Positions 7,582 through 32,592 of a stretch of DNA of 52,603 bases are shown in pieces (within the stretch, counting starts at the first letter, position 1; each line of letters begins with the position of its first letter). The notes under the pieces are model-generated. The model saw nothing but the letters and a program-made list of their open reading frames with translations, was not told the origin of the DNA and did no database searches. The DNA is from a virus, in IMG/VR virus record IMGVR_UViG_3300021475_000018, positions 1 to 52,603 of that record; one strand, written 5' to 3'. The translations under genes were made by a program, and so were the position numbers.

Positions 7582-7626
7582 GTGATTTGGTGAAGATTTC
7601 CAACCGGGCCCATAGGAGGCTATACC

Positions 7627-8364
7627 GTGCAAATTGTTAACCAGCCCATCTTGGGCGGCGGTTTCCGCCACTACTCAGGTTTGCTGCCTGCCATCAACGC
7701 AGCCGGCGACCCCTTCCACGCTTCTGTGAGGCTTTTCCACGTCCCGGCTGCGGACACCAACGCGATGTTCCGCGGAGATATCGCCGTTTCGTCATCGGGC
7801 GCGATTGGCACCCAAGGCGGTGCGGACAATCCGGCCAACATCGGACCGCCGGCCGCAACGCCGGCAACGACCGTCATCGGCAACGGCGGCGGCTCAGGTC
7901 TAGGCAACCAATCGATTGCGCCCAATATCACGCGCTGGGTGCCCGCCGATACTACGTCGCTGATTGTCGGTGCCATCGTCGGCTTCGGTCCGATCACGCT
8001 GTACATGGCCAAGAACGGCTTCCAGTACAAGCCGGCGAGTTTCGAAGCATGGTTCTGGGTGGAGACGGACCCGGCCATGGAATTTACCGCAACCGTACCC
8101 ACCGTGCCCGGCACTGCATTCAATTTGCAGCTCATGGATGGCATCGACGTGAAAGCCAACGCCGGCTTTCAATCGACGCGCTTCGGTATTTCGGGCCTGT
8201 CGCTGGACCCTGCCACCATCGCGACCACGGCTACGCTGCCCCTGCGCATCTTGGGTTCGGGCGAGCAGATCGGCAACGACCCAACTTCGCCGGGTTTCGT
8301 TGCCAAGGTGACTTTCAACAAAAGCCGCCACGCATTCGCCAACGGCGCGTTCGTCGCCGACTAA
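7627..8364 (+). CDS. structural protein, possibly abundant
   Basis: 245 aa from a GTG start behind AGGAGG. No signal peptide. Gly/Ala/Thr-rich and beta-strand-like throughout, with alternating hydrophobic residues, typical of decoration or tail structural proteins. It stands first in the fibre/surface region under the operator-bearing promoter, and a terminator at 8997 would raise its expression with the next gene relative to the rest. No family recognised; head decoration, tail or exported surface roles are all open. Confidence 0.65.
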   Translation: MQIVNQPILGGGFRHYSGLLPAINAAGDPFHASVRLFHVPAADTNAMFRGDIAVSSSGAIGTQGGADNPANIGPPAATPATTVIGNGGGSGLGNQSIAPNITRWVPADTTSLIVGAIVGFGPITLYMAKNGFQYKPASFEAWFWVETDPAMEFTATVPTVPGTAFNLQLMDGIDVKANAGFQSTRFGISGLSLDPATIATTATLPLRILGSGEQIGNDPTSPGFVAKVTFNKSRHAFANGAFVAD

Positions 8365-8404
8365 CAGCCCGTCAACCGTAACGTTGAAACGAGGATACAG
8401 GACA

Positions 8405-8983
8405 ATGAAGGAATTTCTTTCCAAGCTGAAGGGCGCAGCGATCGCGGTTGCGGCCGTCGTTGCTTTGATGCTGCCGACCGGTGGCGCTTTGGCCCAGACC
8501 ATCACCGCGCTCCCAAACAACGTCATCATCAACAGCGTTCTGGACATGGGCAACGGCCCCATGGAACTGAAGGTGCTGCAAGGCAACGGGTGGTTGTTCA
8601 CTGCGCAGGGTGCCGGCGTCGGCTCCACGTCGGGTTCGTCCACCACGTTGACGCTCACGGCGACCGCCGCTGCGGACCCGCCATGTGTAGGTTGCGAAAT
8701 TTCCGGCGCCGGCATCACGTCGGGCACCACCGTGGCAGCGTTCAACGGCACCACCACCATCACGCTCTCCGCGGCGATGACGGTTGCGGCGTCCACCCCG
8801 CTTGCATGGGGAATGGCCTGCCCGACCTTCGCAGCGCTGTCCGGCCTGCCCCCGGTACCAAATGTCGGATTGCCGGCTGCCGGCGGCGGTGACTTGCCGC
8901 TGTACACGCAGGCACGGGTCTGTCTTTTGGCGCAGAACGGTCCCGGCCTTACCGTGCTGCCCTTCCCGATCGGCGCGCACTAG
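8405..8983 (+). CDS. exported protein with Sec signal peptide, 192 aa
   Basis: The N-terminus has Lys residues, a hydrophobic core (AAIAVAAVVALML) and an ALA-Q cleavage site near residue 31, a textbook Sec signal. The mature part is beta-rich with Thr/Ser/Gly repeats (GSTSGSSTTLTLTATAAA) and two Cys pairs (CVGC, then later C residues) that could form disulfides in the periplasm. Followed by a terminator. Unusual for a phage structural region; see findings. Confidence 0.7.
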   Translation: MKEFLSKLKGAAIAVAAVVALMLPTGGALAQTITALPNNVIINSVLDMGNGPMELKVLQGNGWLFTAQGAGVGSTSGSSTTLTLTATAAADPPCVGCEISGAGITSGTTVAAFNGTTTITLSAAMTVAASTPLAWGMACPTFAALSGLPPVPNVGLPAAGGGDLPLYTQARVCLLAQNGPGLTVLPFPIGAH

Positions 8984-8996
8984 CAGCGCTTAGCGG

Positions 8997-9020
8997 CCGG
9001 GGGCTTCGGCTCCCGGTTTT
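8997..9020 (+). terminator. rho-independent terminator or attenuator
   Basis: An 8-bp stem (CCGGGGGC with GCTCCCGG) closed by a TTCG tetraloop, followed by TTTT and ACTTT. It lies between 8983 and the next start at 9045 in the same direction, so it probably attenuates rather than ends the unit. Confidence 0.7.
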
Positions 9021-9044
9021 ACTTTCAACCGGAGGACTGCTTCC

Positions 9045-9338
9045 ATGCGTAAATATTTCGCTTGCGCGCTCGCGATGTCGCTTGCTTTCTCCGCTCCGAT
9101 CGCGGTTGCGGCGCAGACTTCTAAGCAGGGCATGCCAACCATTCACGTTCCGTACAGCGGCGCGGTCAAGGTGCCCTTCATGACGACTGCGCAGCTTCCG
9201 ATTTGCGATAGCTTCAACATCGGCATCATTCTTGGCGTCACCGATGCAACGACGCCGACGTACAACGGTGCGCTGACCGGCGGCAGCAACGTTGCCGTGC
9301 TTGTCGTGTGCAACGGTGCTGCTTGGAAATCGATGTAG
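9045..9338 (+). CDS. exported protein with Sec signal peptide, 97 aa
   Basis: GGAGG lies before the ATG. Residues 1-22 form a signal peptide (RKYFACALAMSLAF, cleavage near AVAAQ). The mature part is about 74 residues with two Cys and beta-like segments (IIGVTDATTPTYNGALTG style). Sits between another exported protein and fibre genes. No family recognised. Confidence 0.7.
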   Translation: MRKYFACALAMSLAFSAPIAVAAQTSKQGMPTIHVPYSGAVKVPFMTTAQLPICDSFNIGIILGVTDATTPTYNGALTGGSNVAVLVVCNGAAWKSM

Positions 9339-9353
9339 CAAGGAGCTGCCGCC

Positions 9354-9671
9354 GTGGCTATGAACCCCATCGTTTCCGTTCCGCGCGACTATCAGCAATG
9401 GTCGAACAACGTCATTCCGGTTATCGACTTTCCGTGCAAAGCCGGTGTGTACACGTTCACAGCGACGGCGACGGCTTGGGGTACGGCGCAGCTTCAGCGC
9501 ATGGTCGCGGACCCCGTACTAGGCGCCGAGTATATCAACATCGGCGCCGCGATTGTGGCCAATGGCATGACCGAGTACCACTTGGCGGCGGGGCAGTATC
9601 ATTGGGCCATCGCGGGAACGACTGGCTTTTCCGGCGTGTTCGAACGTACGGGTTCGTGGGCAGGAAGGTAG
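9354..9671 (+). CDS. hypothetical virion/fibre-region protein, 105 aa
   Basis: The GTG at 9354 follows AAGGAG; the in-frame ATG two codons later is an alternative start. No signal peptide. A compact beta-rich protein with conserved-looking aromatic residues (YQQW, YHWAIAGTTGF). Neighbours are fibre and exported proteins, so a role in the tail or fibre is likely but unproven. Confidence 0.65.
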   Translation: MAMNPIVSVPRDYQQWSNNVIPVIDFPCKAGVYTFTATATAWGTAQLQRMVADPVLGAEYINIGAAIVANGMTEYHLAAGQYHWAIAGTTGFSGVFERTGSWAGR

Positions 9672-9675
9672 TTGA

Positions 9676-10275
9676 GTGACGTATACGCCGTCAACCGATC
9701 TTCTCGCGCTGTTGCGGAATACGGCGAACGGCGAACGCGTAACCAGTGTCCCCGGGCTCGATTGGGTTGTTGCTGCGCTTGCGCGCGCCGGTTTGATTAC
9801 TTTGGTTGTGAGCCAAACTGCGCCGACTGTTAATCAAGCAATTACGGCGTGGTTTAAACCAAATATTCCCTCATGGACCGCCGAAGGTGTTTTGTTTTTG
9901 TGGAACGGCACAGCATACGCGCCAGCCACGCCCGCATTGTGGAACCAAGTCATAAGTTCCAGCGGCTCGGCGACGCTGAACTATGTTACGATAAATGCAC
10001 TCGGAACCGGTGCATACGCTGCACAGCCAGCCGATGACGTGATTTTGATTAAGTCAGGTGTAGGCGCACCGTTCACGGTAAACGTTGACTGGAGTGCGCG
10101 CACAAAGAAGCTAACCGTTGTTGACAGCGGATTGGGTGCTTTGGCGAACAACATCACCATTGTACCTAAAGCGGGCCAGACGCAAATGGGCACGTTGAAT
10201 TATCAGTACCCCATCGACAGCAACGGCGGAAGTATCACACTCACGCCACTACCGGACGGTTCGGGAGCCTACTAG
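9676..10275 (+). CDS. fibre-module protein, paralog A, 199 aa
   Basis: GTG start. The first about 95 residues (PSTDLLALLRN, PGLDWVVAALARAGLITL, TAWFKPNIPSWTAEGVLFLWNGTAYAPATPALW) are shared with the proteins at 14647 and 15801, while the C-terminal half is unique and beta-rich. A common N-terminal docking domain with variable distal parts is the usual design of phage fibres. The stop overlaps the next GTG (TAGTG). Confidence 0.7.
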   Translation: MTYTPSTDLLALLRNTANGERVTSVPGLDWVVAALARAGLITLVVSQTAPTVNQAITAWFKPNIPSWTAEGVLFLWNGTAYAPATPALWNQVISSSGSATLNYVTINALGTGAYAAQPADDVILIKSGVGAPFTVNVDWSARTKKLTVVDSGLGALANNITIVPKAGQTQMGTLNYQYPIDSNGGSITLTPLPDGSGAY

Positions 10276-11876
10276 TGAAAAAGCTTTGTTATATCGCCGT
10301 TGCATTGTTGGCGTTCATCGCGCCGGCAACAGCGCAGGTTAACCCCGGCACGTCGCCGCTGTCAATTGCTAAGGGCGGCACCGCGGCGAACACGCGCGCG
10401 GGTGCGGCGATGAATATTCTTCCTGCGTTCACGGGTGACGTGACAAGCAGTTTGGGTGGGTTTGTACTCACGCTTGCAATTGTGAACAGCAATGTCGGTT
10501 CTTTTGGCTCCGCGACGCAATGCGTGAGTTTCACAACGAACGCCAAAGGTTTGATTACGGCCGCTGCCGTGGTGACATGCACGCCGGGCATCGCGGCCGT
10601 TACCGGGCTTGGGACGAACGTTGCTACGGTGCTTGGTGCTGCCGCCAACGGTTCCGGTGGCGTCGTTGCCCCGACACCAACGCGAGCCGGGGACGTCGTT
10701 TATTGGAACGGAACAACGTGGGTCACGCTAGCAGGCAACAATTCTGGAACGAACGTCCTGCAAGAAACTTCGGCCGGCGTGCCGTCTTGGGTTGCTGCTT
10801 CTGGCGGCGGTACGATGCTGAGCTTGACGCCCGGCGGCGGCTTGGTGTCTTCAGTCACCGCAGCATGTTCGCAAACTGCGGTGACCACAAGCGGTACGTT
10901 TTCGGCTGCGCATTGCATCAACGCGCAAAGCGGGACTTCGTACGCTATTCAAGATAGCGACCGCGCAAAAACTATCATTGCCAACAACGCTGCGGCTCAG
11001 GCGTACGCTATCGCGCAAGCAGGTGCCGCTTCTGCGTTCCAATCAGGCTGGTATACCGATATTCAAAACAGTTCGGTTAACGCCGCAGCCATAGTCACCA
11101 TCACTGCTTCAACTTCGCAATTGTGTGCACAAGGAACGTGCGCACCTACGTACAAAATACTACCCGGACAGTTTGCGCGTATTTCATCGGACGGTACGAA
11201 CTACCAAGTTACAATGAACCCGGCGCTAAAAGCGCAGACAAGGCAAGTATTTCTTTCGGGTACCGGCGCTACGTATACGACGCCAACGCCGGCACCGCTC
11301 TATGATGTTATTCGCATGCAGGGCGGCGGTGCCGGCGGCGGCGGTTCGGGCACTGGTGGCGGCGCTGGTACGGTTGGAAATGCAAGCTCCGTTGTCGTGA
11401 GCAGCACCACCATTACCGCAGGCGGCGGCGGTGCGGGTTCGGCGGGCGGCGGTTCGGCATCGGGGGGTACTAATACCAACTGTACGACTGGGATTGTTGC
11501 CGCCGTTACAAGCGCAGTTGGGTATTCAGGCGGAGCCAGCGGTGCGGCTTCCGGGGGAACCAACATTCCGGGCGGAGCCGGTGGGAGTACGTCAACGGGC
11601 GCGGGCGGCGGCGGTGGCAGCACTTCGCCCGGCGCGGGCGGCCCCGGCGCCACGAACAGCGGCGGAGGCGGTGGCGGTGCGGGTGATGGGTCTGTGGGTC
11701 CGTCAGGCAGCGGCGGCGCGGGCGGCGCTTATTGCGAGCTGGTAATATCGCCCGTACCTGCAACTATGACGTACACTGTCGGGGCCACGGCGGCTGCCGG
11801 CTCCGCAGGTACTAGCGGCGCAGCCGGTGGTGTCGGCGCTGCTGGGGATATTATCTTTGAGGAACACTATCAATGA
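10275..11876 (+). CDS. tail-fibre-like protein with signal peptide and Gly-rich tip
   Basis: 533 aa. Residues 1-21 look like a Sec signal (KKLCYIAVALLAFIAPATAQ). A fibre repeat follows (FTGDVTSSLGGFVLTLA, NSNVGSFGSA, KGLITAA), as in many tail fibres, then a mixed middle. The last about 180 residues are extreme Gly-rich (GGG blocks) ending DIIFEEHYQ, the pattern of polyglycine receptor-binding tips of fibres and adhesins. A signal peptide on such a protein is unexpected and suggests export, or a hydrophobic virion anchor. The GTG overlaps the previous stop. Confidence 0.75.
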   Translation: MKKLCYIAVALLAFIAPATAQVNPGTSPLSIAKGGTAANTRAGAAMNILPAFTGDVTSSLGGFVLTLAIVNSNVGSFGSATQCVSFTTNAKGLITAAAVVTCTPGIAAVTGLGTNVATVLGAAANGSGGVVAPTPTRAGDVVYWNGTTWVTLAGNNSGTNVLQETSAGVPSWVAASGGGTMLSLTPGGGLVSSVTAACSQTAVTTSGTFSAAHCINAQSGTSYAIQDSDRAKTIIANNAAAQAYAIAQAGAASAFQSGWYTDIQNSSVNAAAIVTITASTSQLCAQGTCAPTYKILPGQFARISSDGTNYQVTMNPALKAQTRQVFLSGTGATYTTPTPAPLYDVIRMQGGGAGGGGSGTGGGAGTVGNASSVVVSSTTITAGGGGAGSAGGGSASGGTNTNCTTGIVAAVTSAVGYSGGASGAASGGTNIPGGAGGSTSTGAGGGGGSTSPGAGGPGATNSGGGGGGAGDGSVGPSGSGGAGGAYCELVISPVPATMTYTVGATAAAGSAGTSGAAGGVGAAGDIIFEEHYQ

Positions 11877-12172
11877 TGCCGGACCCAAAAGTAAGGTGCC
11901 CCGCAACAGCCTTCACGCGCACATGCCGTGAAATCCTGGGGGAGTGCGACTGTCCGAAATTCGTCAGTGTCAAGGGCCACGACCCGCAAACCGGCGCCGT
12001 TGTTGATCGGCATGGTTGCGTGGACAGCTTCTTGCCGCTACTATTGATTGAAAATGCTCAGGTGTCGCGGCAAACTGGCGCGGCTGTCGAAAGCCTGCGT
12101 AACGAAATTGTCAAGAGTGCTGAAGATCGGCAGGTTGCGCTCGCAGCGGCTCAGCAACGATTTCTGAGGTAA
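11873..12172 (+). CDS. hypothetical protein with Cys motif, 99 aa
   Basis: Starts in an ATGA overlap with the fibre gene. The N-terminal half has Cys at CPATAFTRTC, ECDCPKF and HGCV, a likely metal-binding or disulfide knot. The C-terminal half is an amphipathic helix, coiled-coil like (ENAQVSRQTGAAVESLRNEI). Small proteins of this type are common next to fibre and lysis genes, but function is unknown. Confidence 0.7.
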   Translation: MMPDPKVRCPATAFTRTCREILGECDCPKFVSVKGHDPQTGAVVDRHGCVDSFLPLLLIENAQVSRQTGAAVESLRNEIVKSAEDRQVALAAAQQRFLR

Positions 12173-12178
12173 AGAGTC

Positions 12179-12469
12179 ATGCAAATCTATAACCGGGGAA
12201 CGACAGTGCATCACCACCTTGACACCCTTAACTGGCCGGTGCTGGGCGTGAACGCCGCTGTTTTACCGTGGTTGAACGATCTGTGGACTTACGTTCCGGC
12301 TCCCACAGCGATCTACATGATTGTGTCGGCGGCCTTTATGTTGTTCCAGATGTCTGATAAGCTGGGCTTGCTGCACCGTTTCAAGCGGCACGCACCGGAG
12401 ACGGCAGAAGATCGGCGGGCAACTTCCATCATCAAGGAGCTGCCGGATGTCCCACAACAGGAGCACTGA
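12179..12469 (+). CDS. membrane protein, holin candidate, 96 aa
   Basis: One clear hydrophobic helix (about residues 42-60, TAIYMIVSAAFMLFQM) and a weaker hydrophobic stretch before it (WPVLGVNAAVLPWLNDLW), followed by a basic and then acidic C-terminal tail. Size and topology fit a class II/III holin. The gene at 19868 is another holin candidate nearer the endolysin, so this may be an accessory or antiholin. Confidence 0.6.
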   Translation: MQIYNRGTTVHHHLDTLNWPVLGVNAAVLPWLNDLWTYVPAPTAIYMIVSAAFMLFQMSDKLGLLHRFKRHAPETAEDRRATSIIKELPDVPQQEH

Positions 12470-12472
12470 GCG

Positions 12473-12802
12473 ATGACTGCTTTCAAAGGCCACAAGACGG
12501 GCTTCAATCCCAAGGGCAGCAACGCATGCGTGCCCAACGAAATGGGTCCGCCAACGACGAAGTTCAACGGGCGCCCTGCGGTGCCGGCTGGACCGCTGAA
12601 GCGCTACCCGGGCGCGGCTGCGGACATTTCGAACGGCAATCGTCGGCTCGCGAAGGCCAACCATGGCGAAGGCGATGGCAGCGGCGTGACTTTCAGCGGC
12701 GCCCCCAGCGGCTTCAAGAATACCGGAGGAATGTCCAGCGGTCGCAAGCCTGGGGGTATGGGCGGCAAGCGCAGCAAGGATATGTCGGACAATCGGAAAT
12801 AA
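12473..12802 (+). CDS. Gly/Lys-rich hypothetical protein, 109 aa
   Basis: Low-complexity, basic, rich in Gly, Lys, Asn and Pro; probably disordered. Starts three bases after the previous stop. No family recognised. Such basic disordered proteins can bind nucleic acid or act as glue in virions. Confidence 0.6.
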   Translation: MTAFKGHKTGFNPKGSNACVPNEMGPPTTKFNGRPAVPAGPLKRYPGAAADISNGNRRLAKANHGEGDGSGVTFSGAPSGFKNTGGMSSGRKPGGMGGKRSKDMSDNRK

Positions 12803-12807
12803 CGACG

Positions 12808-13020
12808 ATGGGCAAAGACGCGAAGGGCCACGGTTCTGCTGCTCGCGGCGGCCGGCAAACAAAAATGACCGCCATGCGTTTTGAACACGCGGCCCGTACG
12901 GGCGTGCTTGGTTCAAAGTTCAAGTCGAAAGCGGTGCGTAGCGGTAAGCAGGCGAAGATGACGAAACTAAGATCGTCGTTTCGTTTCAACGCTGCGTTAA
13001 AGTCGCCACGTTCGAAGTAG
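12808..13020 (+). CDS. basic hypothetical protein, 70 aa
   Basis: ATG at 12808, just after the previous gene; a much longer upstream extension of the same frame overlaps that gene and was rejected. Highly basic, with Lys/Arg/Ser/Met and motifs such as RGGRQTKM and SGKQAKM that look like an internal duplication. No family recognised. Confidence 0.6.
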   Translation: MGKDAKGHGSAARGGRQTKMTAMRFEHAARTGVLGSKFKSKAVRSGKQAKMTKLRSSFRFNAALKSPRSK

Positions 13021-13032
13021 AAGGGAACTTAC

Positions 13033-13446
13033 GTGTTCTATCGCCCAGGCGGCACGGCCAAAGCGCCCAATCGTCAGTACGATACGGTCTATGCCGACAC
13101 CATCGGCATGGCTACCGATTGGCTGCCGATCAACAAGGGCGATACGATCGCGGTCAACATCGCGCGCGCCTCCATCGTGTTCGCGAGCGCTGCGCAGAGC
13201 ACGGTGACCGCGACGCCGTTCGCGCCGGAAATGAGCGTAGTTATGGAACTGGCCGTTTTGGGCGGCGCGGCTCCGATCAAGTTTCCAATCGATAACTGGG
13301 AAAACGTAGTCGTTGCTACGTCACGTCGGGCGCATCGCGCGGGTTTTGTACGGTTGAAGATTTTGAACATCAATAACGGCGACGGTACGGGCCTTTTGAT
13401 GGGCTTGCAAATCAGCCGTACGGGCGAGAGCGGAGCGGTGACATGA
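13033..13446 (+). CDS. hypothetical structural protein, 137 aa
   Basis: GTG start 12 bases after the preceding stop. Beta-rich with alternating hydrophobic residues (DTIAVNIARASIVFASAA, FVRLKILNINN) and no signal peptide. Looks like a small virion protein. Coupled by ATGA to the next gene. Confidence 0.65.
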   Translation: MFYRPGGTAKAPNRQYDTVYADTIGMATDWLPINKGDTIAVNIARASIVFASAAQSTVTATPFAPEMSVVMELAVLGGAAPIKFPIDNWENVVVATSRRAHRAGFVRLKILNINNGDGTGLLMGLQISRTGESGAVT

Positions 13447-13592
13447 ACGAACAAGAAATTCGAGCTTGCGTGATGCATGTTCGCGGCGCCATAGCGAACA
13501 ACGACGAAAAGGCAGCGTTGGATGCGATTGAAATCCACAAGGATTTCAATCGCATCGCCGATGCGCTCGAAAAGATGGCGAGCAAGGGGTAG
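13443..13592 (+). CDS. small helical protein, 49 aa, with an internal DNA inverted repeat
   Basis: Starts in an ATGA overlap. Acidic/helical, no family recognised. Its middle coding sequence (13521-13556) is a perfect 16-bp inverted repeat with a 4-nt loop, encoding a stretch centred on IEIHKDF. The gene is small but well placed between two coupled neighbours. Confidence 0.6.
   Translation: MNEQEIRACVMHVRGAIANNDEKAALDAIEIHKDFNRIADALEKMASKG
13521..13556. repeat. perfect 16-bp inverted repeat inside a gene
   Basis: GATGCGATTGAAATCC, loop ACAA, then GGATTTCAATCGCATC. The transcript would fold into a 16-bp hairpin. No T-run follows, so it is not a classical terminator. Confidence 0.85.
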
Positions 13593-13595
13593 CGC

Positions 13596-14225
13596 GTGGG
13601 CGGTTTCGACAACGGGTCAATTCAAGGCGGCGTCTTTTTTCAGGCCAAGCAATTCGGCTCGGTATTGCGCGGCGCCGGCCCGCCCGTGCCCCAATCCGGC
13701 GTTGTCGGCGACGTCTATATCGATACGCAGTCATGGTTTTTGTACGCCAAGCGGAGCGCAGATAATACGGACCCTTGGGGGCACTATTTGTTTCAAGTGC
13801 CCGTGACGTACCGTACGGCGCTGAAGTGGTTTAGCGCATCCGCGCCGGATAGCAGCATAGGCGTGCCCGGGGACTACTGCTTACTTTGGAGCGGCTGGTC
13901 TAACTACGGCATGCAGCCTTCGATCTACGGACCGAAGCAAGCCGCGGGATGGCCCGAAAACGGCAATGGCGGCACTGTTCCGATCGCAGCCGCGGGCGCC
14001 GGAACTGTGTTGCCAGTCGGTTTGCTGGACGAAGGGGCGCCGTTGACGTACAGCACGTCAACGCAGTTGATCGCAGTTGGTTTGGCGGATGAATTTATCC
14101 TCGCTGTTCCGGTTACTGCGGCTGCCGGCGACCCAGTAACGCAGCAAGGATTGCAGTCCGGACCGGCTGCGGTCGCCGTCGTGCTCAATCCGCTGTACAC
14201 CGCCCAGGACGGTCATGGTGTTTAA
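13596..14225 (+). CDS. fibre-module protein, family B copy 1, 209 aa
   Basis: GTG start. The first about 125 residues match the next gene closely in pattern (GFDNGS/TIQGGVFFQ.KQFGS, DPWGHYLFQVP, GDYCLLW, Y.PKQAAGWP). The C-terminal 80 residues form a separate Ala/Val/Thr-rich beta domain. Tandem duplication with divergence is typical of fibre or host-range loci. The stop TAA lies within a GTTTAAAC palindrome. Confidence 0.7.
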   Translation: MGGFDNGSIQGGVFFQAKQFGSVLRGAGPPVPQSGVVGDVYIDTQSWFLYAKRSADNTDPWGHYLFQVPVTYRTALKWFSASAPDSSIGVPGDYCLLWSGWSNYGMQPSIYGPKQAAGWPENGNGGTVPIAAAGAGTVLPVGLLDEGAPLTYSTSTQLIAVGLADEFILAVPVTAAAGDPVTQQGLQSGPAAVAVVLNPLYTAQDGHGV

Positions 14226-14228
14226 ACG

Positions 14229-14657
14229 ATGTCCGGCTTTGACAACGGGACACTTCAAGGCGGTGTCTTCTTCCAATCGAAACAATTTGGTTCGATTATT
14301 CGCGGTTTAGGTCCGCCCGGGCCGGCTGCCGGCGTACAAGGTGATCTGTACATCGATGTCTTGTTGTGGTTCCTGTACGCCAAGCGCGCAATTGACGACA
14401 CAGACCCGTGGGGTCACTACCTGTTTCAAGTGCCCGCGACGTACCAAGCGCAGCTCAAGTGGTTCGGCAATTCCATACCGACGAATGATGTCGGCATCAA
14501 CGGCGATTACTGTTTGATCTGGGGCGGCTATCCGAACTACGGTCTGCAACCTTCAATCCTCGGTCCGAAAGCCGCGGGTGCATGGCCGGGCTCGCCCAAC
14601 GCGGTCGCTGTGACGTTGAACCCGCTGTACACGGCGGAGGACACGCATGGTTTATAA
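14229..14657 (+). CDS. fibre-module protein, family B copy 2, 142 aa
   Basis: Shorter paralog of the preceding gene, lacking its extra C-terminal domain but ending with the same LNPLYTAEDTHG-like tail. Probably a fibre adaptor or small structural module. Overlaps the next start at 14647 by 11 bases. The two copies could bind different fibres to the same virion site. Confidence 0.7.
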   Translation: MSGFDNGTLQGGVFFQSKQFGSIIRGLGPPGPAAGVQGDLYIDVLLWFLYAKRAIDDTDPWGHYLFQVPATYQAQLKWFGNSIPTNDVGINGDYCLIWGGYPNYGLQPSILGPKAAGAWPGSPNAVAVTLNPLYTAEDTHGL

Positions 14658-15801
14658 CCCAGCAACAGACTTTCTCGCACTTTGGCGCAACATCGCTGGC
14701 GTCGTCTCCAAGGTAGAAATGCCGGGGCTCGATTACGTTGTCGCCGCGCTCGCGCGTGCCGGCGTGATCACGCTGTCTGTTTCAGCGACCGCGCCAGTCG
14801 TCAGTCAGTCGACGACGGCATGGCTGCAAACGGCTGTCCCAAGTAATTCGGCCGAAGGCGTATTGTTTCTGTGGAACGCGGTCACAAGCGCGTACGTACC
14901 CGCTACGGCCGCGTTATTTCTCGATCTTTTGGAGGCATCGGCCGGGCAAAGTGGCGTCTCATGGTGGACTTCAGTCGGTGGGCCGCCACTTAATACAGTC
15001 GGCAATAACGGTGATTTTGCTGTCCGTACAGACGAACCAAACGGCATTTACGGCCCGAAAGCCTTGGGCGTGTGGCCCGCCTCTCCGCTGCCCGGCACCG
15101 CTGACGTACTCACGAGCAGTGCGCTTGACAACACGTTCGGCGCAACGGAGGGCGAGCTAGTCTACCGCGGCCCGCTTTTATGGCAAGGGCTCGGCATCGG
15201 CGCCGCCGGGACAGTCTTGACGCCTTCCGGCGGTGTGCCTGCATGGGAAGCACTGTCCGCGCTGCTTGACGCCGTGTTCGGCAACGTGCAGGGCGATATT
15301 TTGTACCGGGACACTGCCGCATGGAAGACGCTTGCCCCGGGTGTGGCGGGCACGGTTTTGACTACCGGGGGTGCGGGCGCCGACCCGTCGTGGCTGTCGT
15401 CGCCGTCCACCTTTCCATCCGGCACAGTCATGCTGTTTCAACAGACCGCGGCCCCCGTGGGCTGGACAAAGCAAACGGCTTTCAATGACTACGGCTTGCG
15501 CGTGGTGTCTGGCGCGGTCGGTTCGACGCCGGGCACCGCTTTTAGCACCGTGTTTGCGCAAACTTCAGTTGGCAATACGGCGCTGAATGCCTCGCAGATA
15601 CCCGCGCATACGCATCCAGTTAGCGCGTTGCAATTCAACACGACGGATAACGGCACCATCGCTGCGATCGGGTACTATTCCAATTCTGGCGGTGCCGGCG
15701 GCGTTGTTACGGATAACAATACAGGCGGAGGCGGTGCGCATAATCACTCGGTCAGCTTGGCTCTGTCGTACGTCGATATGATACTTGCGAGCAAGAACTA
15801 A
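14647..15801 (+). CDS. tail fibre with collar-type C-terminal domain, 384 aa
   Basis: N-terminal about 95 residues are paralogous to those of the 9676 and 15801 genes. The middle repeats the NGDFAV/GPKALGVWP type module seen in family B. The C-terminus (PSGTVMLFQQTAAPVGWTK, ASQIPAHTHP, GGGGAHNHSVSLALSYVDMILASKN) is a phage tail-collar domain with its His-rich AHTH and AHNH metal-binding motifs. So this is a true tail fibre, likely receptor-contacting at the distal end. TAATG overlap with the next gene. Confidence 0.8.
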   Translation: MVYNPATDFLALWRNIAGVVSKVEMPGLDYVVAALARAGVITLSVSATAPVVSQSTTAWLQTAVPSNSAEGVLFLWNAVTSAYVPATAALFLDLLEASAGQSGVSWWTSVGGPPLNTVGNNGDFAVRTDEPNGIYGPKALGVWPASPLPGTADVLTSSALDNTFGATEGELVYRGPLLWQGLGIGAAGTVLTPSGGVPAWEALSALLDAVFGNVQGDILYRDTAAWKTLAPGVAGTVLTTGGAGADPSWLSSPSTFPSGTVMLFQQTAAPVGWTKQTAFNDYGLRVVSGAVGSTPGTAFSTVFAQTSVGNTALNASQIPAHTHPVSALQFNTTDNGTIAAIGYYSNSGGAGGVVTDNNTGGGGAHNHSVSLALSYVDMILASKN

Positions 15802-16409
15802 TGTACAACCCGTCAACCGATTTTCTTTCGTTGCTGCGAAATACAGGCAGTGGCAAAAGCGTGCTCAACATGCCGGGGTTGGATTGGACCGTTGCAGCGC
15901 TCGCTCGCGCGGGTCTTATCAACTTATCGGTTGGGCAAACCGCGCCAATGGTCAATCAGCCGACTACGGCATGGTTTAAACCATCGCAACCGTCATGGGT
16001 TGCAGAAGGCGTGCTTTACTTGTGGAACGCCAGCGCGGCTCAGTACCAAGTTGCTACGCCGTCACTGTGGCAGGCTGCGCTTTCCGGTACGAACAGTTAC
16101 GCATTCCAATCGGCGAAGTCTGCATCGAACCTCGTTAATGCGGGAACGACATTGTTGGCAATCCAACGTGCAGGGCCGTCTGCGACGACGCTTATACTCC
16201 CGCCGCTTAATCAGCGCATTGCAGGCCAGCTTTTGAAGGTCGTCGATTGGTCAACAGCGGTTGTCAATCATGCCGTAACCATCACGACTACGGATGGTTC
16301 GTCAATCATGCAAGAAACTTCTTGGGGCTTGCTATCGACGGCTGTACAACTTGCCGGTATTGGTTTATACCCGTCTCCTGATCTCAATGGGTGGGTCATT
16401 GCACCATGA
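15801..16409 (+). CDS. fibre-module protein, paralog C, 202 aa
   Basis: The N-terminal about 95 residues resemble the 9676 and 14647 products (PSTDFLSLLRN, TAWFKPSQPSWVAEGVLYLWN); at DNA level both this gene and 9676 keep a GTTTAAAC in the shared W-F-K-P codons. The unique C-terminal domain is beta-rich. Likely another exchangeable fibre unit. ATGA overlap with the following exported fibre gene. Confidence 0.7.
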   Translation: MYNPSTDFLSLLRNTGSGKSVLNMPGLDWTVAALARAGLINLSVGQTAPMVNQPTTAWFKPSQPSWVAEGVLYLWNASAAQYQVATPSLWQAALSGTNSYAFQSAKSASNLVNAGTTLLAIQRAGPSATTLILPPLNQRIAGQLLKVVDWSTAVVNHAVTITTTDGSSIMQETSWGLLSTAVQLAGIGLYPSPDLNGWVIAP

Positions 16410-17944
16410 AATTTGGAAAACTCGAAGTTGTTCTTTTTGTACTCTTCAATATGTTGGTTGCTTCGCCTGCGATTGGGCAGTGGCAGACGCCCGCGCACTC
16501 TGTCCCTATCGGACAGGGCGCCGGCATCACCGGCTTCGGCAGTGCGGGCCCGGCTGCCGCGGGCGTTCCGTTTGTCGGTAGCGGACCTACATCGGACCCG
16601 GTATTCGCGCCGCTTAATTTGGGTACGGCGGTAACTGGTAATATCATAACTTCGGCTGTGGGCTGCGTGAGCGCTACGCCATGCGTCGGGGATAGCGGCA
16701 TCGCTGCCGCGAACGGTACAATGACCTTCACCAAAAACAGCCTGACTTCATTGACATTCCACGACGCAGTAAGTTCGCCAGACACGGGCACATTCGGTAC
16801 GGCGCAATCCGTACAATGCGACCCGGGTTACATCATGACGGGCGGCCCGGGCCCCGGACCTTGTACGCAGCTAGGCTTTACGCCAAATCCCAGTAGCGTA
16901 TGGAGCGCGTTGCTTCTAGGGGGCTTCAATGCGCGTGCCGTCATGGGCTCGTACGGCGGTGTCGAAAACCCTGAAATAATCTGCGCCGACACGAACGTTT
17001 TTGGAGTGCAGATCGGCAATGGCGGTAACCAATCAGGTTGCGGATATCTCGGCGCCGCGCGGATCGGCGCCGGCTCCCCGGTGTCTTTCAACATGACCGC
17101 TGGAGGCTTTCCTCAGACTAGCGTCACGGCTTCGTTTGTCACGGGCAGCGGTAACGGCAAGATGACAGTTACGGCGCAATCAGGTTCGCCGATCGTTTTC
17201 GGGGAGACTTTCGTCGGGGCTGGAATTACTGCTCTTAACCCGCATGGTGCGCAAATCACTGGCACCGCCGCAATAGGTTCGGGGAACTGCTCCCCAGCGT
17301 GCACGGGTACCGGTGGCGTCGGCACCTACGCGGTCAATATCAACTCGGCGATCGGCTCGGAAACCATGATTGGCGGCCCTTCCGGCGCTGAAAATTCGAT
17401 GACGCTGGATTTGTGGGGTTTTTCGCTCGCGGGTGACACACAGAATGGTGTTTTCGTTTTCAGCGGCTCGCAAGTTGCGGCGTGGGGTAATTCGCCCGGG
17501 GGTGCGTCGCCGGCCGGCAGTCGCAATGGCGAATTCGCTGGTACGGGCATGGCGGGAGACGGACTGTACACACAAACGGAAACCGGCAGCCGTAATTTTT
17601 ATTTTGACGTAGGCTGTACGGGCACGCACACGGACGGTTCTTATCAGTGTGCCAATAACGATGTTGGGCGGCTTGCGCCGAACGCAATCGCTCCGGAACG
17701 CGTCACCAACGTATTTGATAGTGCGGGTAACCTTTTGCTTGGCGCCAATGGGAGCAGTGCTGGTTTCGCTGCGTTCGGCAACACGATAACCGGGCAAACC
17801 AGCAATTCGTTGGTATTCTATCCAGCTTCAGGCAACCCGACAGGCAACCCGCCATCTGGCGGAGGTTTGCTTTACACGCTCGGCGGTGCTTTGAAGTACA
17901 AATCCGGCGTGGGGACCGTTACCACTATTGTAGCGGGACCGTAG
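16406..17944 (+). CDS. fibre- or adhesin-like protein with signal peptide, 512 aa
   Basis: Residues 1-26 are a signal-like segment (EVVLFVLFNMLVASPAIGQ). The mature region is Gly/Ser/Thr/Asn-rich with beta repeats (GQGAGITGFGSAGPAAAGVPFVGSG, STG repeats), four or more Cys and a C-terminal fibre-type end (NSLVFYPASGNP, LGGALKYKSG). Resembles tail-fibre-like surface proteins of soil alphaproteobacteria, here in a phage fibre locus. The start overlaps the previous stop (ATGA). Export or virion location is unresolved. Confidence 0.7.
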   Translation: MKFGKLEVVLFVLFNMLVASPAIGQWQTPAHSVPIGQGAGITGFGSAGPAAAGVPFVGSGPTSDPVFAPLNLGTAVTGNIITSAVGCVSATPCVGDSGIAAANGTMTFTKNSLTSLTFHDAVSSPDTGTFGTAQSVQCDPGYIMTGGPGPGPCTQLGFTPNPSSVWSALLLGGFNARAVMGSYGGVENPEIICADTNVFGVQIGNGGNQSGCGYLGAARIGAGSPVSFNMTAGGFPQTSVTASFVTGSGNGKMTVTAQSGSPIVFGETFVGAGITALNPHGAQITGTAAIGSGNCSPACTGTGGVGTYAVNINSAIGSETMIGGPSGAENSMTLDLWGFSLAGDTQNGVFVFSGSQVAAWGNSPGGASPAGSRNGEFAGTGMAGDGLYTQTETGSRNFYFDVGCTGTHTDGSYQCANNDVGRLAPNAIAPERVTNVFDSAGNLLLGANGSSAGFAAFGNTITGQTSNSLVFYPASGNPTGNPPSGGGLLYTLGGALKYKSGVGTVTTIVAGP

Positions 17945-17945
17945 T

Positions 17946-18395
17946 ATGAAGATTTTGCTTTCCACGCTTTTCATAATCGCCGTGATGACTTCAGCCGTGG
18001 CCCAAACCGCCGCGCAAAAACAGCAGCTCTTAGAAGATCGAAAGTTCTTCGGCTTTGGCGATTGTCGTACGCGTCGTGAAGACCCCCGGATACTCGATAC
18101 CCCAGATGATATCAAAGTGCGCGACATTGTTGATGCGCGCATAGGCAGCCGCATCGACCGGCAACGCGTGGCTCAGGGCGGCATTGCCGATAATCCGATC
18201 ATAACTGCCGCCGATATCGAGCTGCATCGCACCGCGCTCGCGTTAATCCGTACGTGGGCTTTGATGCTTCCGGAAAGCCGCGTACGGCAAACGTACCTAT
18301 GCGTGGTGCAAATATACGTACGTGACCTTGACGAAGCCGCGGACGAACTGGTAACGCATAGGCTGCAAAAACAGGTAGCACCCTCGAAAGGTTAG
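17946..18395 (+). CDS. exported protein, 149 aa
   Basis: Sec signal peptide (residues 1-19, LLSTLFIIAVMTSAVAQ). The mature region is helical and charged, with two Cys far apart. No family recognised. It lies immediately upstream of a second exported protein and the endolysin, so a lysis or envelope role is plausible. Confidence 0.65.
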   Translation: MKILLSTLFIIAVMTSAVAQTAAQKQQLLEDRKFFGFGDCRTRREDPRILDTPDDIKVRDIVDARIGSRIDRQRVAQGGIADNPIITAADIELHRTALALIRTWALMLPESRVRQTYLCVVQIYVRDLDEAADELVTHRLQKQVAPSKG

Positions 18396-18398
18396 CTC

Positions 18399-18692
18399 AT
18401 GTTCCACCGCATTGCCGTTATTTCGCTGCTCGTCATCGCACCCGCATTCGCTCAACAACCGGTCGCGACGGAAGACCCGGTTGTCAAGGCAGATAGCTAC
18501 TGGCAGCGCTACCACGCACAGCGCGAAGCAGCGGCAGGCCAGCAAGTAGTTTCGTTGGCGCGTCGCATCGATGATTTGGCCGCTCAGATTGAAATTCTCA
18601 AGGGCGAGCTGGCGGCAAAAGCTTCTTGCGTACTTGCGGTGCCGCAGCCTCCGGAAGCTCCGAAAGTTGACATCCCAGAACCGCCCAAATGA
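18399..18692 (+). CDS. exported coiled-coil protein, spanin-like candidate, 97 aa
   Basis: N-terminal hydrophobic segment (residues 4-18) serves as signal or anchor, followed by a heptad-like helix (SLARRIDDLAAQIEILKGELAA) and a Pro-rich end (PQPPEAPKVDIPEPPK). Placed directly before the endolysin with an ATGA overlap. An inner-membrane spanin (Rz type) has this layout: anchor, periplasmic coiled coil, Pro-rich tip. A matching lipoprotein outer spanin was not seen, so the call is tentative. Confidence 0.5.
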   Translation: MFHRIAVISLLVIAPAFAQQPVATEDPVVKADSYWQRYHAQREAAAGQQVVSLARRIDDLAAQIEILKGELAAKASCVLAVPQPPEAPKVDIPEPPK

Positions 18693-19210
18693 GTAGCTTT
18701 TACGATACCGTCATCCGCAATTCGAAAGCGTTTCGATCGGACGCCGTGTGCAAAGACATGGCGATGCTAGAGCCCGGTACGCGTGCGGCGGTGCTTGCGC
18801 TGGTAGCTGATGCCAAAGCCGAAGGCATCGATTTGCGGGTGCTGGAAACGTACAGAAGCCAGACTCGGCAAAGCTACCTCTTTACGAAGCACGTTACTCA
18901 GCTACGCATCGTCGGTTGTCACGGGTATGGCGTCGCGGCCGACTTCGGCGTATTCGTGAACGGGGTTTATCAGGAAAAGAACGGTCCGTACGTTTTCCTG
19001 CGCGTACTGGCGCGCAAGCACGGGCTTATCAGCGGACAGGACTGGGGTCATGCGAAAGAGGGCAGCTTCGTTGATAGCGGGCACGTACAGCGCGTTCCCG
19101 TGTGGCGCCAGACAGCGCTGTTCAACAGCTCATGGTATCCTCCGGTCGATTACGACCCGTACAAAGACAGCGTGGCCAACCATCACGCCGACGTGGTAGC
19201 TAAGGTTTGA
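18689..19210 (+). CDS. M15-type peptidoglycan peptidase, endolysin
   Basis: 173 aa, no signal peptide. Carries the M15/VanY-like zinc ligands: H78 and D85 in HGYGVAADFG, and H132 in SGHVQ, with the RSQTRQSY segment before them. The family includes L-alanyl-D-glutamate peptidases such as the T5 endolysin. Probable role: cut stem-peptide bonds at lysis. Overlaps the spanin-like gene by ATGA. Overlaps by a few bases the end of the leftward 19200-19630 gene. Confidence 0.8.
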   Translation: MSSFYDTVIRNSKAFRSDAVCKDMAMLEPGTRAAVLALVADAKAEGIDLRVLETYRSQTRQSYLFTKHVTQLRIVGCHGYGVAADFGVFVNGVYQEKNGPYVFLRVLARKHGLISGQDWGHAKEGSFVDSGHVQRVPVWRQTALFNSSWYPPVDYDPYKDSVANHHADVVAKV

Positions 19211-22869: not shown

Positions 22870-23541
22870 TTACAGGCCGTTGAAGTGCTTCTGAAGCCCG
22901 ACGCGGAAGGTGGTGTCGTCAGGTAGGCCTTGCTGAGCCGGCGAGTTGTAGAGCTGCGCATAGGTGGACCAGCCCGCCGAAACGACATAATCGATTTCCG
23001 CGCCCACGGCCATGACCGAGAGGCCATGACGTTGCACACCGCCAAAAATGAAAGCCGGTGTGGACGCAGCCAAAAAGTTAGCGGACACCAAGTTGAGAAA
23101 GGGATTTTGGGATGCCGCCGGGGCTTGGGTTGCCGATGACGGGAAGAAGTTGTAGCCGAGCTTAATAAACTCAGTCCCGACGAAGTTGCCCCCGGCCGGC
23201 TTTACGCCCGCGGGCGAAAACTCATAACCCCCGGTCAACTCGATACCGGCGAGCCACTGGCCGGTCCAAAGCTGGTAGCCGCCGCCGGCAAAGATATCGA
23301 GCCCATCCGAAAACGCACTGTTGACGCCGTTCGCAAGAATGTTCGGAGTGCCGACGTTGTTCTGAGCCCCCATGCCGAAGCTCGCGAACCAACCGGAACA
23401 GTTGCCGGCGGACTGGCACGGCTGTACGGCGGGAACGGCCGGGGCCTTGACGAAGGTCGCGAGCTTCGGCAAATCGGCAGCAACAGCGGAAGATGCCAGC
23501 GCAGCAAGCGCGACGCCGGCAAGAAGTGCAGATTTGAACAT
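22870..23541 (-). CDS. outer-membrane beta-barrel protein
   Basis: 223 aa. Signal peptide MFKSALLAGVALAALASSAVAA with AVA-A cleavage, followed by the ADLP start typical of Bradyrhizobium-group outer-membrane proteins. The mature part has glycine and aromatic residues in alternating strands (GWFASFGMGAQ, GGGYQLWTGQWLAGIELTGGYEF, YVVSAGWSTYAQL, FRVGLQKHF). Short barrels such as phage Lom modify the lysogen or infected-cell surface. AAGGAG before the ATG. Ends at the bidirectional terminator. Likely acquired from a host relative. Confidence 0.75.
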   Translation of the reverse strand: MFKSALLAGVALAALASSAVAADLPKLATFVKAPAVPAVQPCQSAGNCSGWFASFGMGAQNNVGTPNILANGVNSAFSDGLDIFAGGGYQLWTGQWLAGIELTGGYEFSPAGVKPAGGNFVGTEFIKLGYNFFPSSATQAPAASQNPFLNLVSANFLAASTPAFIFGGVQRHGLSVMAVGAEIDYVVSAGWSTYAQLYNSPAQQGLPDDTTFRVGLQKHFNGL

Positions 23542-28631: not shown

Positions 28632-29531
28632 TCAGGCGGCCTTCGCCATCGGTGGCAGCCAATCGGGCGGCGCCGGCAGTTCCTCCCCAGGAGCCAAACG
28701 CGCGTTAGCCGGCCGGCGAAAGTCAATCACGGACAGCAACGCCCGCCCCGCCTCTTCTGCCTTCGGCCTGGGGCCTACCGAGCGCGCGGCCATGTCGATA
28801 CGCGGCCAACCCAGGTCAAGCAACCGGCGGGCGTGGTCACGAAACGCAGGGTAGTTGTGCACGAGCCACACAAAGCCAAGCGTCGCGTGTTCCGTTACCA
28901 GCGCATTCGGCGGGGCCAGCGTGGCGATCATTTCCAACGCGGTCACAAGCTCGCCCGGCGGTACAGGGGTTGCTCGTTTGGCGTAGCTTGCGCTGCCGTG
29001 ACCGTACAGCGATTTCAACGCGCCGACGCAAGCAAGTTTCGGCACGGTAAATTCGTCGCGTTGGTTGTTGGCGTCCACAACGGCCAAGCCGGCGTTCTGC
29101 ACGAGCCGGTTGAGCTGCACGGCGCTTTCGTCACCAGCCGCAACTTCCGCCATGAACAACATGGTTTGCGGCACCTTCCGCATTTTGGTGTTGCGCGAAA
29201 GAAAAATCTCGATTTCGCGCTTGCGGTCATGCACGTTGTAAATATCGCACGGAACGAACAGACGCGCGGACGCTTTCGCGCCTTCCCAGCGGTGCCGCCC
29301 GTCCACGACAAACAGCGCACCGTTTGCGCGCCGTACGACCATGAGCCGGCCGAACAGTGTCAAGTCGAAAGTCTTACCGATTTCCTTTACCAGCCGTGGG
29401 TTGCGCGGCTTCATTGCTTGATACGTCGTATCGACATTCAACAGTCCAATCGGAACCTCGGTTGGTTCCGGTTTTTCTTCGATGATAACGACGGGTTTCT
29501 GTTCCCAAGGGAACATCTTCGCGGTACTCAT
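28632..29531 (-). CDS. ParB/Srx-like domain protein, 299 aa
   Basis: The ATG at 29531 follows AGGAGCCGTACAA. Residues about 25-100 are a ParB N-terminal-type fold (GLLNVDTTYQAMKP, RLMVVRRANGALFVVDGRHRWEGAK), whose DGRHRW motif is the nucleotide-binding or nuclease core of this superfamily. The rest is helical with an HNHH-free DNA-binding-like region. The N-terminus has the FPWE motif (residues 7-10). Single-gene leftward unit with its own promoter. Could act in DNA partition, regulation or host nuclease; unproven. Confidence 0.7.
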   Translation of the reverse strand: MSTAKMFPWEQKPVVIIEEKPEPTEVPIGLLNVDTTYQAMKPRNPRLVKEIGKTFDLTLFGRLMVVRRANGALFVVDGRHRWEGAKASARLFVPCDIYNVHDRKREIEIFLSRNTKMRKVPQTMLFMAEVAAGDESAVQLNRLVQNAGLAVVDANNQRDEFTVPKLACVGALKSLYGHGSASYAKRATPVPPGELVTALEMIATLAPPNALVTEHATLGFVWLVHNYPAFRDHARRLLDLGWPRIDMAARSVGPRPKAEEAGRALLSVIDFRRPANARLAPGEELPAPPDWLPPMAKAA

Positions 29532-31116: not shown

Positions 31117-32592
31117 ATGCCAGCAATCAATGTAATGGGGTCTTTTCAAGACCCTTTAAATCTGGATCAGGGCGCCGGCAAGCTCGTGAACGTGCGCGTT
31201 GTCCCGCGCGAAATGAAGGAGGGACGCGTCGCCAAGGTGCGTTTCCTCGGTTCGCCGGGGCTTACCACCGTATGCCAGCCCACCGCGCAACCTTGTATCG
31301 CGCTCTGCCACGCGCTCGATACGATATGGAGCGGTCACGGTGACGGTTCGATATACTACGGCATTGAAACCGGAGTACCCGTGTTGGCGGGCTTCGTTGC
31401 CGTACAAGCCGGCCAGCCGGTAATTCGGTTTGCGGAAGATCGCACGGCGCTTGCCATCGCATCAAATAAGAACATTCTCAATCCGTTGCTGTTTGGTACG
31501 GGTTACGTTGGTGTGAAGACCCCCACGGCCGGCATAACCAACGCCGGCTTTGACACGTCGATTGATTTTGATCCGTCCACCGTGGCAGAGCTGGACAACA
31601 TGACGATATGGTCCGGCGCGTCAAATGTGTACGCCAATCAAGATAGTAAGATGTACAACTCGAACCCGCTCGCGCCGGGCACGGTGCAGCCGAATAGCTT
31701 CGCCACGAAAGAAGCCCGCGCCGATCGCGTGGTTGACTTGGCGATTTCCGGCCGCGTCATGTGGCCGCTGGGTTCCCGGTCACTGGAGCAATGGTACGAT
31801 AGCGGCAACGGCGCCGATTTCCCGTATCAGGCGTTCCCCAATTCACTCAATTCGGTAGGCATCGCATCGCGGCTCACGTTGGCGGTGCTCCGCGACCGTA
31901 TCATGTTCGTGGGCACCAACCGTCGTGTGTGGCTTTGCTCGGGTCAATCCGGGGCCCCGGTGTCGCCGACCTGGGTTGACAATCTGCTGCAAGAGTTGAC
32001 GCTTACGCAGTTAGGCCAACTCACGGCCTATGCCTACGCACACGCGGAAAGTGACTTCTATGTACTCACGCTCCCTGGGTCTTGGACCATTGAGCTGTCC
32101 GGCGCGACGGGTTCGTGGTCTTACCGTCAGTCACCCGGGCGGCTTGACCATGCCAGCCGATGCGCTACGGAACACGATGGGGGTTCGACTTACGTCGGTC
32201 TGGATACGGGCCACATATGTACGGCTGATATGAACAATCAGACCGAGCCCGCCGGTACGATTTCCCGAATAATTGTGACCCCATGGGTTGGCGACGAAGA
32301 ATACCGCAGCACGTATGCTACGGTTGACGCAACGTCATCCATGGGTCCGCAAGCCGGCACCTTTCAGCTCGATTGGTCGGAAACTGCTGATGTCACCGAA
32401 GGCGGCGTCGTGGTGTCGAACCGTACGTGGCGCGGAGTACGACAAATTCAGATGCCGACGCCGGGCGTGCAACGCGCGATCGGACGTGATTTTGGTACGG
32501 GCCGGCGCCGTCAATTCCGATTGCAGTACAGCGGCACGCAAGCGCCCTTCACAATTGACGAAATGTTTATCAATACGATCAAAGGGACTTAA
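31117..32592 (+). CDS. packaged-DNA stabilisation protein, P22 gp10-like
   Basis: 491 aa (P22 gp10 is 472). N-terminus NVMGSFQDPLNLDQGAGKLVNVRVVP is the usual start of such proteins, followed by a repeated beta-propeller-like series (GSPGLTTV, TIWSGASNVYANQDSKMYN, VVDLAISGRVMWPLGSRSLEQWYDSG). Forms part of the tail plug beneath the gp4 layer. Overlaps the stop of the leftward 32589 gene. Confidence 0.8.
   Translation: MPAINVMGSFQDPLNLDQGAGKLVNVRVVPREMKEGRVAKVRFLGSPGLTTVCQPTAQPCIALCHALDTIWSGHGDGSIYYGIETGVPVLAGFVAVQAGQPVIRFAEDRTALAIASNKNILNPLLFGTGYVGVKTPTAGITNAGFDTSIDFDPSTVAELDNMTIWSGASNVYANQDSKMYNSNPLAPGTVQPNSFATKEARADRVVDLAISGRVMWPLGSRSLEQWYDSGNGADFPYQAFPNSLNSVGIASRLTLAVLRDRIMFVGTNRRVWLCSGQSGAPVSPTWVDNLLQELTLTQLGQLTAYAYAHAESDFYVLTLPGSWTIELSGATGSWSYRQSPGRLDHASRCATEHDGGSTYVGLDTGHICTADMNNQTEPAGTISRIIVTPWVGDEEYRSTYATVDATSSMGPQAGTFQLDWSETADVTEGGVVVSNRTWRGVRQIQMPTPGVQRAIGRDFGTGRRRQFRLQYSGTQAPFTIDEMFINTIKGT

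Follow-up and report, generated by a model that had tools for sequence, protein, structure and literature searches.

The window analysed here is the entire IMG/VR record IMGVR_UViG_3300021475_000018, 52,603 bases of what, judged by its genes, is a short-tailed phage of P22-like design. Two genes of its tail cluster, 10275 and 16406 (genes are named by their first position in the window), encode fibre-like proteins that begin with a Sec signal peptide (SP), and each overlaps the end of a gene, 9676 and 15801, respectively, for a putative adaptor without an SP, here called the module. Comparison with related loci indicates that SP-carrying fibres with overlapping, matching adaptor genes are a property of a group of mostly uncultured short-tailed phages. 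We regard it as marginally probable that these pairs are split tailspikes, in which a virion-borne adaptor receives a Sec-exported receptor-binding body that docks at lysis. The more specific proposal, that receptor-binding tailspike halves fold outside the cytoplasm, reaching the periplasm by Sec, becoming oxidised there, and snapping onto sockets of matching type on completed virions at lysis, we hold only tentatively, at a little less than an even chance.

A sequence-only reading of the window had listed six tail and lysis genes with Sec SPs (8405, 9045, 10275, 16406, 17946, and 18399), and this held: all six are uninterrupted open reading frames (ORFs) from those starts, with N-termini of the n-, h-, and c-region pattern. 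Both 10275 and 16406 have the features expected for Sec and signal peptidase I (basic n-region, hydrophobic core, small residues at -3 and -1), and cleavage is predicted after MKKLCYIAVALLAFIAPATA in 10275, leaving a mature start of QVNP, and after MKFGKLEVVLFVLFNMLVASPAIG in 16406, leaving QWQT. Among genes of at least 80 amino acids, SPs were called in 6/18 in the tail cluster versus 1/40 elsewhere in the window (Fisher p 0.0026), using our own heuristic caller rather than SignalP and adding by hand 17946, which the gene caller had overlooked. The same SP caller found 1/43 in the control phage P22 (an Rz spanin) and 1/41 in BcepC6B (gp19, annotated as a tail fibre). Under a heading of fibre-like proteins, the sequence-only reading had named 10275 and 16406 as looking like tail fibres, a description that we retain for both. 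Neither these two nor the other SP proteins of the window matched PHROGs or Pfam, and 16406 had no match by sequence in the PDB; the fibre assignment comes instead from a stretch that 10275 has in common with an annotated tail protein and from tail-like relatives of 16406 (Beta_helix in L007, PHROG tail families in L005, L010, and L011). The remaining four were dropped from the fibre count, 8405 and 9045 being conserved and not exchanged as fibres are, and 17946 and 18399 lacking relatives within the locus set and any fibre-like character.

Relatives were sought with the N-terminal domain that 9676, 14647, and 15801, the fibre genes without an SP, have in common, which returned 31 viral loci; the set analysed after duplicate removal comprised 35 loci and the window. 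Near-identical contigs were dropped (L006, L015, L018 in favour of L042, L022, L023, L031, L033, L038-L040, L045, L049-L051, and L054-L056), while L046 and L048 (92.8% identical) were both retained. IMGVR 3300050821_004060 was rejected as independent support because it is 100% identical to the window across the compared stretches. ORFs below 80 amino acids were omitted from SP and cysteine counts, and those below 70 from pair, homology, and type comparisons. The gene caller misplaced starts in L042, L043, L044, L019:4684, and L032:2874, and these miscalls account for most apparent homologies between SP and non-SP proteins.

The SP fibres fall into three types: type 1 (T1, the 16406 family), type 2 (T2, with an IAKGGT motif, as in 10275), and type 3 (T3, with a HAFAIGKG motif). 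Fibres of all three types are preceded by a gene for a module of ~200 amino acids without an SP, and 34/35 complete modules have no cysteine. The module lies directly upstream in 25 of the 30 T1 rows; among the others, the upstream gene of L041 is cut by the contig end and the start in L042 is miscalled. Module and SP-fibre genes overlap in 33/33 pairs, by 4 nucleotides in 23, by 1 in 3, and by 16-19 in the 7 where the gene caller chose an upstream start. The module N-domain (first 92 residues) is alike whatever follows it (mean identity 0.58-0.69), whereas the C-domain (~110 residues) forms three types, with mean identity of 0.50-0.80 within and 0.17-0.19 between them, and its type equals that of the downstream SP fibre in 33/33 pairs. 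The nearest C-domain from another genome has the same downstream type in 33/33 cases, versus 28/33 for the nearest N-domain; label shuffles, which ignore relatedness, reached the observed contrast in 0/2000 trials for the C-domain and in 9/2000 for the small contrast of the N-domain. Eight genomes carry two pairs, all of them matched, and the gene arrangement takes three forms: L008 has the T1 pair in first place, most of the others have it last, and in the window the T2 pair is displaced upstream by several kb relative to its position in L005 and L007. No type label was assigned to two of the 35 modules, and one of these, in L020, is followed by a protein with QWQVPNYAVPIGRG, a T1 relative by eye.

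These regularities bear on the most ordinary explanation, an assortment of unrelated accessory SP genes lying by chance among tail genes. It draws on 17946 and 18399, which do not look related to fibres and probably function in lysis or elsewhere (18399 is probably lysis-associated), and on 8405 and 9045, with their unfibre-like conservation. The T1-T3 families, with a fixed position, gene overlap, and a type-matched partner on some 30 independent contigs, speak against it; it is strongly disfavoured for 10275 and 16406, and we consider it highly improbable overall.

The module N-domain is not confined to pairs. It is also fused to an HxH-motif tip in 14647 and its relatives, a tip that we take to be like those of gp12/gp37; 14647 itself gave a single weak match to the PDB by sequence (E 0.29). 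In L029 (6955-9381), an SP-less chain of 808 amino acids joins the module N-domain to tailspike-like sequence, FLDFGAVADGATNND, whose body reads by eye as a beta-helix and had no match in Pfam. This chain lies between a 14647 relative and a T1 pair, which is the slot of the T2 or T3 pair in L005, L007, L010, L011, and L027, so the module and SP-fibre pair and the one-chain tailspike appear to be equivalents. No SP fibre is present in L034, and L030 has just one short SP protein (106 amino acids); both encode long collagen-like fibres without SPs.

Comparison of close phages suggests that SP-fibre bodies are replaced as those of host-range proteins are. Host-range proteins typically combine a kept start with a replaced body, and this pattern of a retained N-terminal region and a horizontally exchanged C-terminal body, as in receptor-binding proteins, is present in the SP fibres of two close phage pairs. 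The window and L011 have terminases that are 98% identical and tail genes mostly 85-98% identical, yet 16406 resembles its L011 counterpart only across residues 1-82 (44%), and 10275 resembles its partner, an SP protein of another type, only across residues 1-121 (47%). Likewise, most proteins of L007 and L005 are 86-100% identical, while their SP fibres are alike only across residues 1-71 and 1-83. Modules vary moderately in the close pairs (61-75%), as does 14647 (79-86%), and 8405, 9045, and their counterparts are 94-100% conserved, unlike the SP-fibre bodies. Within the set, the relatives of parts of 10275 and 16406 are themselves SP proteins.

The SPs of the T1 fibres appear to be cleavable. 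In the T1 table, 27 of the 30 rows were recognised by the heuristic caller, the exceptions being L026 (a stub of 41 amino acids), L042 (start set too early), and L052; the N-termini of L042 and L052 look signal-like by eye. In a second list with one extra locus, a site of the form [AVSTI]x[AG] followed by Q precedes the mature motif in 31/31 T1 members; as the search pattern fixes -3, -1, and +1, this result means that no T1 member is without such a site. Residue -1 is Ala in 30/31 and Gly in the window's own 16406, and +1 is Gln in all 31, with no lipobox Cys at that position, while the sequence of the hydrophobic core is not conserved. Retention of a cleavage-type site while the core drifts speaks against an uncleaved virion anchor, one of three options that the sequence-only reading had offered for these proteins. 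Under that explanation, the fibres would remain cytoplasmic or at the inner membrane, with a hydrophobic N-terminus that stays uncleaved as an anchor or serves for insertion into the virion. Hydrophobic N-termini alone cannot separate signal from anchor, and tailed phages do use Sec for exported endolysins and for endolysins with signal-anchor-release segments (excerpt of PMC6116005). Beyond the conserved site, however, the N-terminal domain shared with other fibres belongs to the separate SP-less module, and the even, raised cysteine numbers of the SP proteins fit the periplasm; we consider an uncleaved anchor very unlikely.

Cysteines of SP and SP-less proteins were compared in the first locus set only, where 270 of 571 proteins were non-redundant and 199 were counted (52 SP and 147 non-SP, plus strand). 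Mature SP proteins have 1.80 Cys per 100 amino acids versus 0.68 in SP-less neighbours, and among proteins with at least two Cys the number is even in 40/47 SP versus 28/44 SP-less proteins. In a separate count, it is even in 26/32 complete T1-T3 fibres. Six long fibres from sister phages, all SP-less, contain 0-0.84 Cys per 100. This enrichment supports oxidative folding of the SP fibres, short of proof.

Structure prediction gives the module a connector-type fold. The model of 15801 (pLDDT 79.7, with residues 1-26 below 50) matches CBA120 TSP4 (E 4e-5), and C-domain residues 98-202 superpose on TSP4 78-176 (Z 11.4, rmsd 2.3, 96 residues), which nearly coincides with the XD1 domain (residues 80-178; excerpt of PMC8825819). 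The C-domain also matches T4 gp10 (Z 9.3) and gp9 (Z 7.7), the C-terminal part of an Acinetobacter phage tailspike (Z 11.1), and CpaA (Z 9.1). As modelled, it has the TSP4 XD1/T4 gp9 connector fold, and gp9 associates with the long tail fibre (same excerpt); this is consistent with a connector role of the module, short of proof. For the mature T1 fibre of L019, the last 130 residues of the model (281-411, VIA; pLDDT ~45-77) match TNF-like lectins (PLTL, Z 13.2; BC2L-C, Z 12.9). Foldseek/PDB matches of this SP fibre to capsid and toxin proteins (TM ~0.25, rmsd near 19) were regarded as meaningless, and its BFVD matches, mostly unnamed phage proteins, were not used.

The scheme that we propose takes its SPs, cleavage motif, gene overlap, type matching, body exchange, interchangeability with a fused tailspike, and cysteine enrichment from the sequence comparisons above. 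The module (9676 or 15801) would stay in the cytoplasm and enter the virion through the N-terminal domain that it has in common with one-chain fibres, its C-terminal connector-type domain serving as a socket. The SP fibre (10275 or 16406), co-translated from the overlapping gene, would cross the inner membrane by Sec, lose its SP after AxA/AxG, trimerise, and probably form disulfides in the periplasm. Once holin and endolysin open the cell, virions would meet the periplasmic fibres, and the type-specific N-terminal region of the fibre would dock on the matching module. Cleavage, trimers, disulfides, docking, the time and place of assembly, and presence in the virion are the parts of this scheme that we infer.

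The main rival is export without a place in the virion, which includes the decoy-adhesin role that the sequence-only reading had offered as another of its three options. The SP fibres would then act in the periplasm, at the surface of the infected cell, or once set free by lysis, serving as decoys, as blockers of superinfection, as neutralisers of debris, or as free depolymerases that match the phage's own receptor. This reading agrees with the Sec signals and their cleavage site, several phages (L009 and L014 among them) export two or more large proteins, and a receptor-matched body would also be exchanged along with host range. Envelope proteins of phages have precedents, and the genes for some lie close to those for receptor binding: T5 Llp acts from the periplasm to block FhuA (excerpt of PMC9586334), and lambda Lom is coded between tail-spike and tail-fibre genes (excerpt of PMC12309495). 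As these excerpts describe them, both are exported to the envelope like the SP fibres, but Llp is a small outer-membrane lipoprotein and Lom a beta-barrel, whereas the SP fibres have ~250-730 amino acids and exchanged bodies. Off-virion export leaves unexplained both the type match between module C-domain and SP-fibre N-region and the fused SP-less tailspike in the slot of a pair. By eye, moreover, no lipobox or barrel anchor was seen in the T1-T3 fibres, and no other large variable fibre was seen in the cluster of the six phages without a 14647 gene (L009, L012, L013, L016, L017, and L019). We consider this rival somewhat unlikely. Docking after export, with a probability of about one half, is the likeliest reading, and of the three options of the sequence-only reading its 'join virions after export' fits best, given the cognate adaptor genes, the body exchange typical of receptor-binding proteins, and the fused tailspike that replaces a pair.

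Cultured phages and known tailspike systems offer partial parallels. SPs stand at the start of BcepC6B gp19, Xanthomonas phage PBR31 orf035, and Tunturi_4 ORF113, which, as in the window, combine an SP with fibre-like sequence homologous to the SP fibres of relatives; their annotation goes no further than tail or structural protein. No module gene of the TSP4-XD1 type was identified alongside them, though no systematic search was made. The first ~110 residues of T1 SP fibres show homology to BcepC6B gp19 (E ~2e-6), as does the tip of the T3 SP fibre of L027 (45% over 142 amino acids, E 3e-24). That tip is also found at the end of the tail fibre of Klebsiella phage KpV74, a protein with an N-terminal domain of T7 type and without an SP. 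Both gp19 and orf035 lie immediately downstream of a tailspike gene (gp18 in BcepC6B) and upstream of lysis genes. For Tunturi_4 ORF111 (L037:6297-9392), an in-frame upstream start at 6297, read as Leu (TTG or CTG), adds an SP, and the annotation, with its start at 6654, probably omits an SP-bearing N-terminal extension similar to that of ORF113. No description of Sec-exported tail fibres was found in the open-licence PMC literature. The available excerpts do not discuss SPs for orf035 (PMC10975493) or for the Tunturi_4 proteins (PMC11924767), and those of PMC3426561 and PMC3556154 concern BcepC6B gp15 rather than gp19, and endolysin and spanins rather than SP fibres, respectively. In the branched tailspike of CBA120, the TSP4 adaptor recruits TSP1-3, so that a virion-anchored chain of XD type carries separate tailspikes as proposed for the window; there, TSP2 binds TSP4 via its own XD2, whereas the partner in the window carries a Sec signal instead, and the adaptor of the window has one XD1-like domain and no XD2 or XD3 (excerpt of PMC8825819 for CBA120). 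The window encodes P22-like Hc3/gp10, tail-needle-like, and DNA-ejection-like parts, but P22 gp9 is one chain and was not called as SP, unlike the pairs. P22 tailspikes add late and spontaneously to heads in vitro.

Several observations weigh against split tailspikes. T1 fibres in L052, L057, and L058 have other genes upstream and no module, and L028:9995, the second module without a type label, is a T3-like orphan whose next gene is another module. The matched segments are adjacent, so linkage could yield part of the type match. XD1 is a probable spacer in TSP4 according to its authors, and glycan-binding domains of this fold occur in CpaA and StcE (both from the PMC8825819 excerpt), so the module could itself bind a receptor. 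The L019 fibre model is weak (pLDDT 60.3). Cysteine numbers are odd in 6/32 complete T1-T3 fibres, and two SP-less proteins, the P22 tailspike and BcepC6B gp18, have 8 Cys (1.20 per 100) and 9 Cys (1.41), respectively, so cysteine content is not diagnostic and was rejected as proof by itself. The BcepC6B gene preceding gp19 encodes a complete tailspike rather than a bare adaptor, and no proteomics of SP-fibre proteins was found in the open-licence PMC literature.

Features of the window are given below; its tail and lysis genes span ~7600-19200, the VanY-type endolysin gene being the last.

Features of the tail and lysis cluster and two further genes of the window (aa, amino acids)
Feature	Coordinates	Strand	Remarks
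SP protein	8405..8983	+	192 aa, conserved domain, 4 mature Cys; 94% identity in close relative L011
SP protein	9045..9338	+	97 aa, 2 mature Cys; 97% identity in L011; relatives in L005, L007, L028
Putative adaptor (module) without SP	9676..10275	+	0 Cys; N-terminal domain shared among the fibre genes, C-terminal domain of type 2; 1-nucleotide overlap with 10275
Type-2 SP fibre	10275..11876	+	IAKGGT motif, Gly-rich tip, 8 mature Cys
Conserved short tail-cluster protein	13596..14225	+	no SP
Conserved short tail-cluster protein	14229..14657	+	no SP; kin of 13596 by eye
Conventional fibre without SP	14647..15801	+	module N-terminal domain fused to HxH-motif tip
Putative adaptor (module) without SP	15801..16409	+	0 Cys; type-1 C-terminal domain, predicted TSP4-XD1/gp9 fold; 4-nucleotide overlap with 16406
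Type-1 SP fibre	16406..17944	+	SP, conserved N-terminal region (~25-80), unique body, 10 mature Cys
SP protein	17946..18395	+	149 aa, 2 mature Cys; not fibre-like
SP or signal-anchor protein	18399..18692	+	heptad-like then Pro-rich by eye; overlaps endolysin gene
Endolysin, VanY-type peptidase	18689..19210	+	
Large terminase	20276-21856		matches 188/50,697 cultured phage records, every match <60% identity
Head closure Hc3 (Hc3/gp10 family)	31117-32592		E 1e-31

The domain of 8405 is the N-terminal domain of longer SP proteins in L016 and L017. Further large SP proteins occur in relatives (L009:12463-19355, L014:595-4395, L020:2130-5138, L032:3794-8152, and L013:870-5240), reaching 1266 amino acids; that of L020 contains 30 mature Cys, several follow one another in L009, and some have a 'FWQSRDSNYN'-like start in common by eye. 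Outside the tail cluster, 22870-23541 on the minus strand encodes an SP protein of 223 amino acids that had no match in Pfam or PHROG, looks by eye like small alphaproteobacterial outer-membrane proteins, and has a 98% identical counterpart in L011; other SP genes, comparable in size, occur on the minus strand close to the terminase in L012, L016, L018, L021, and L030. A ParB-like partition protein was matched at 28635-29531 on the minus strand (phrog_1033, E 1.7e-9), and no integrase was noticed. Scans of bacterial genomes with T1 fibres and with modules found no relative, and a tblastn search of cultured phages with 16406, 15801, and the T1 N-terminal region gave no match.

The prevailing view is that tail fibres are made and assembled in the cytoplasm. 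A Sec-routed class of fibres, if real, would give these phages access to disulfide-stabilised receptor-binding proteins and would make virion maturation dependent on lysis, host Sec, and disulfide enzymes. Virion assembly would then end in the envelope or the lysate, and phenotypic mixing of fibres among virions would be possible after lysis. Host-range genes of this kind may also be misfiled by annotation pipelines, as secreted proteins that look host-like. The three cultured phages with SP fibres make the question directly testable.

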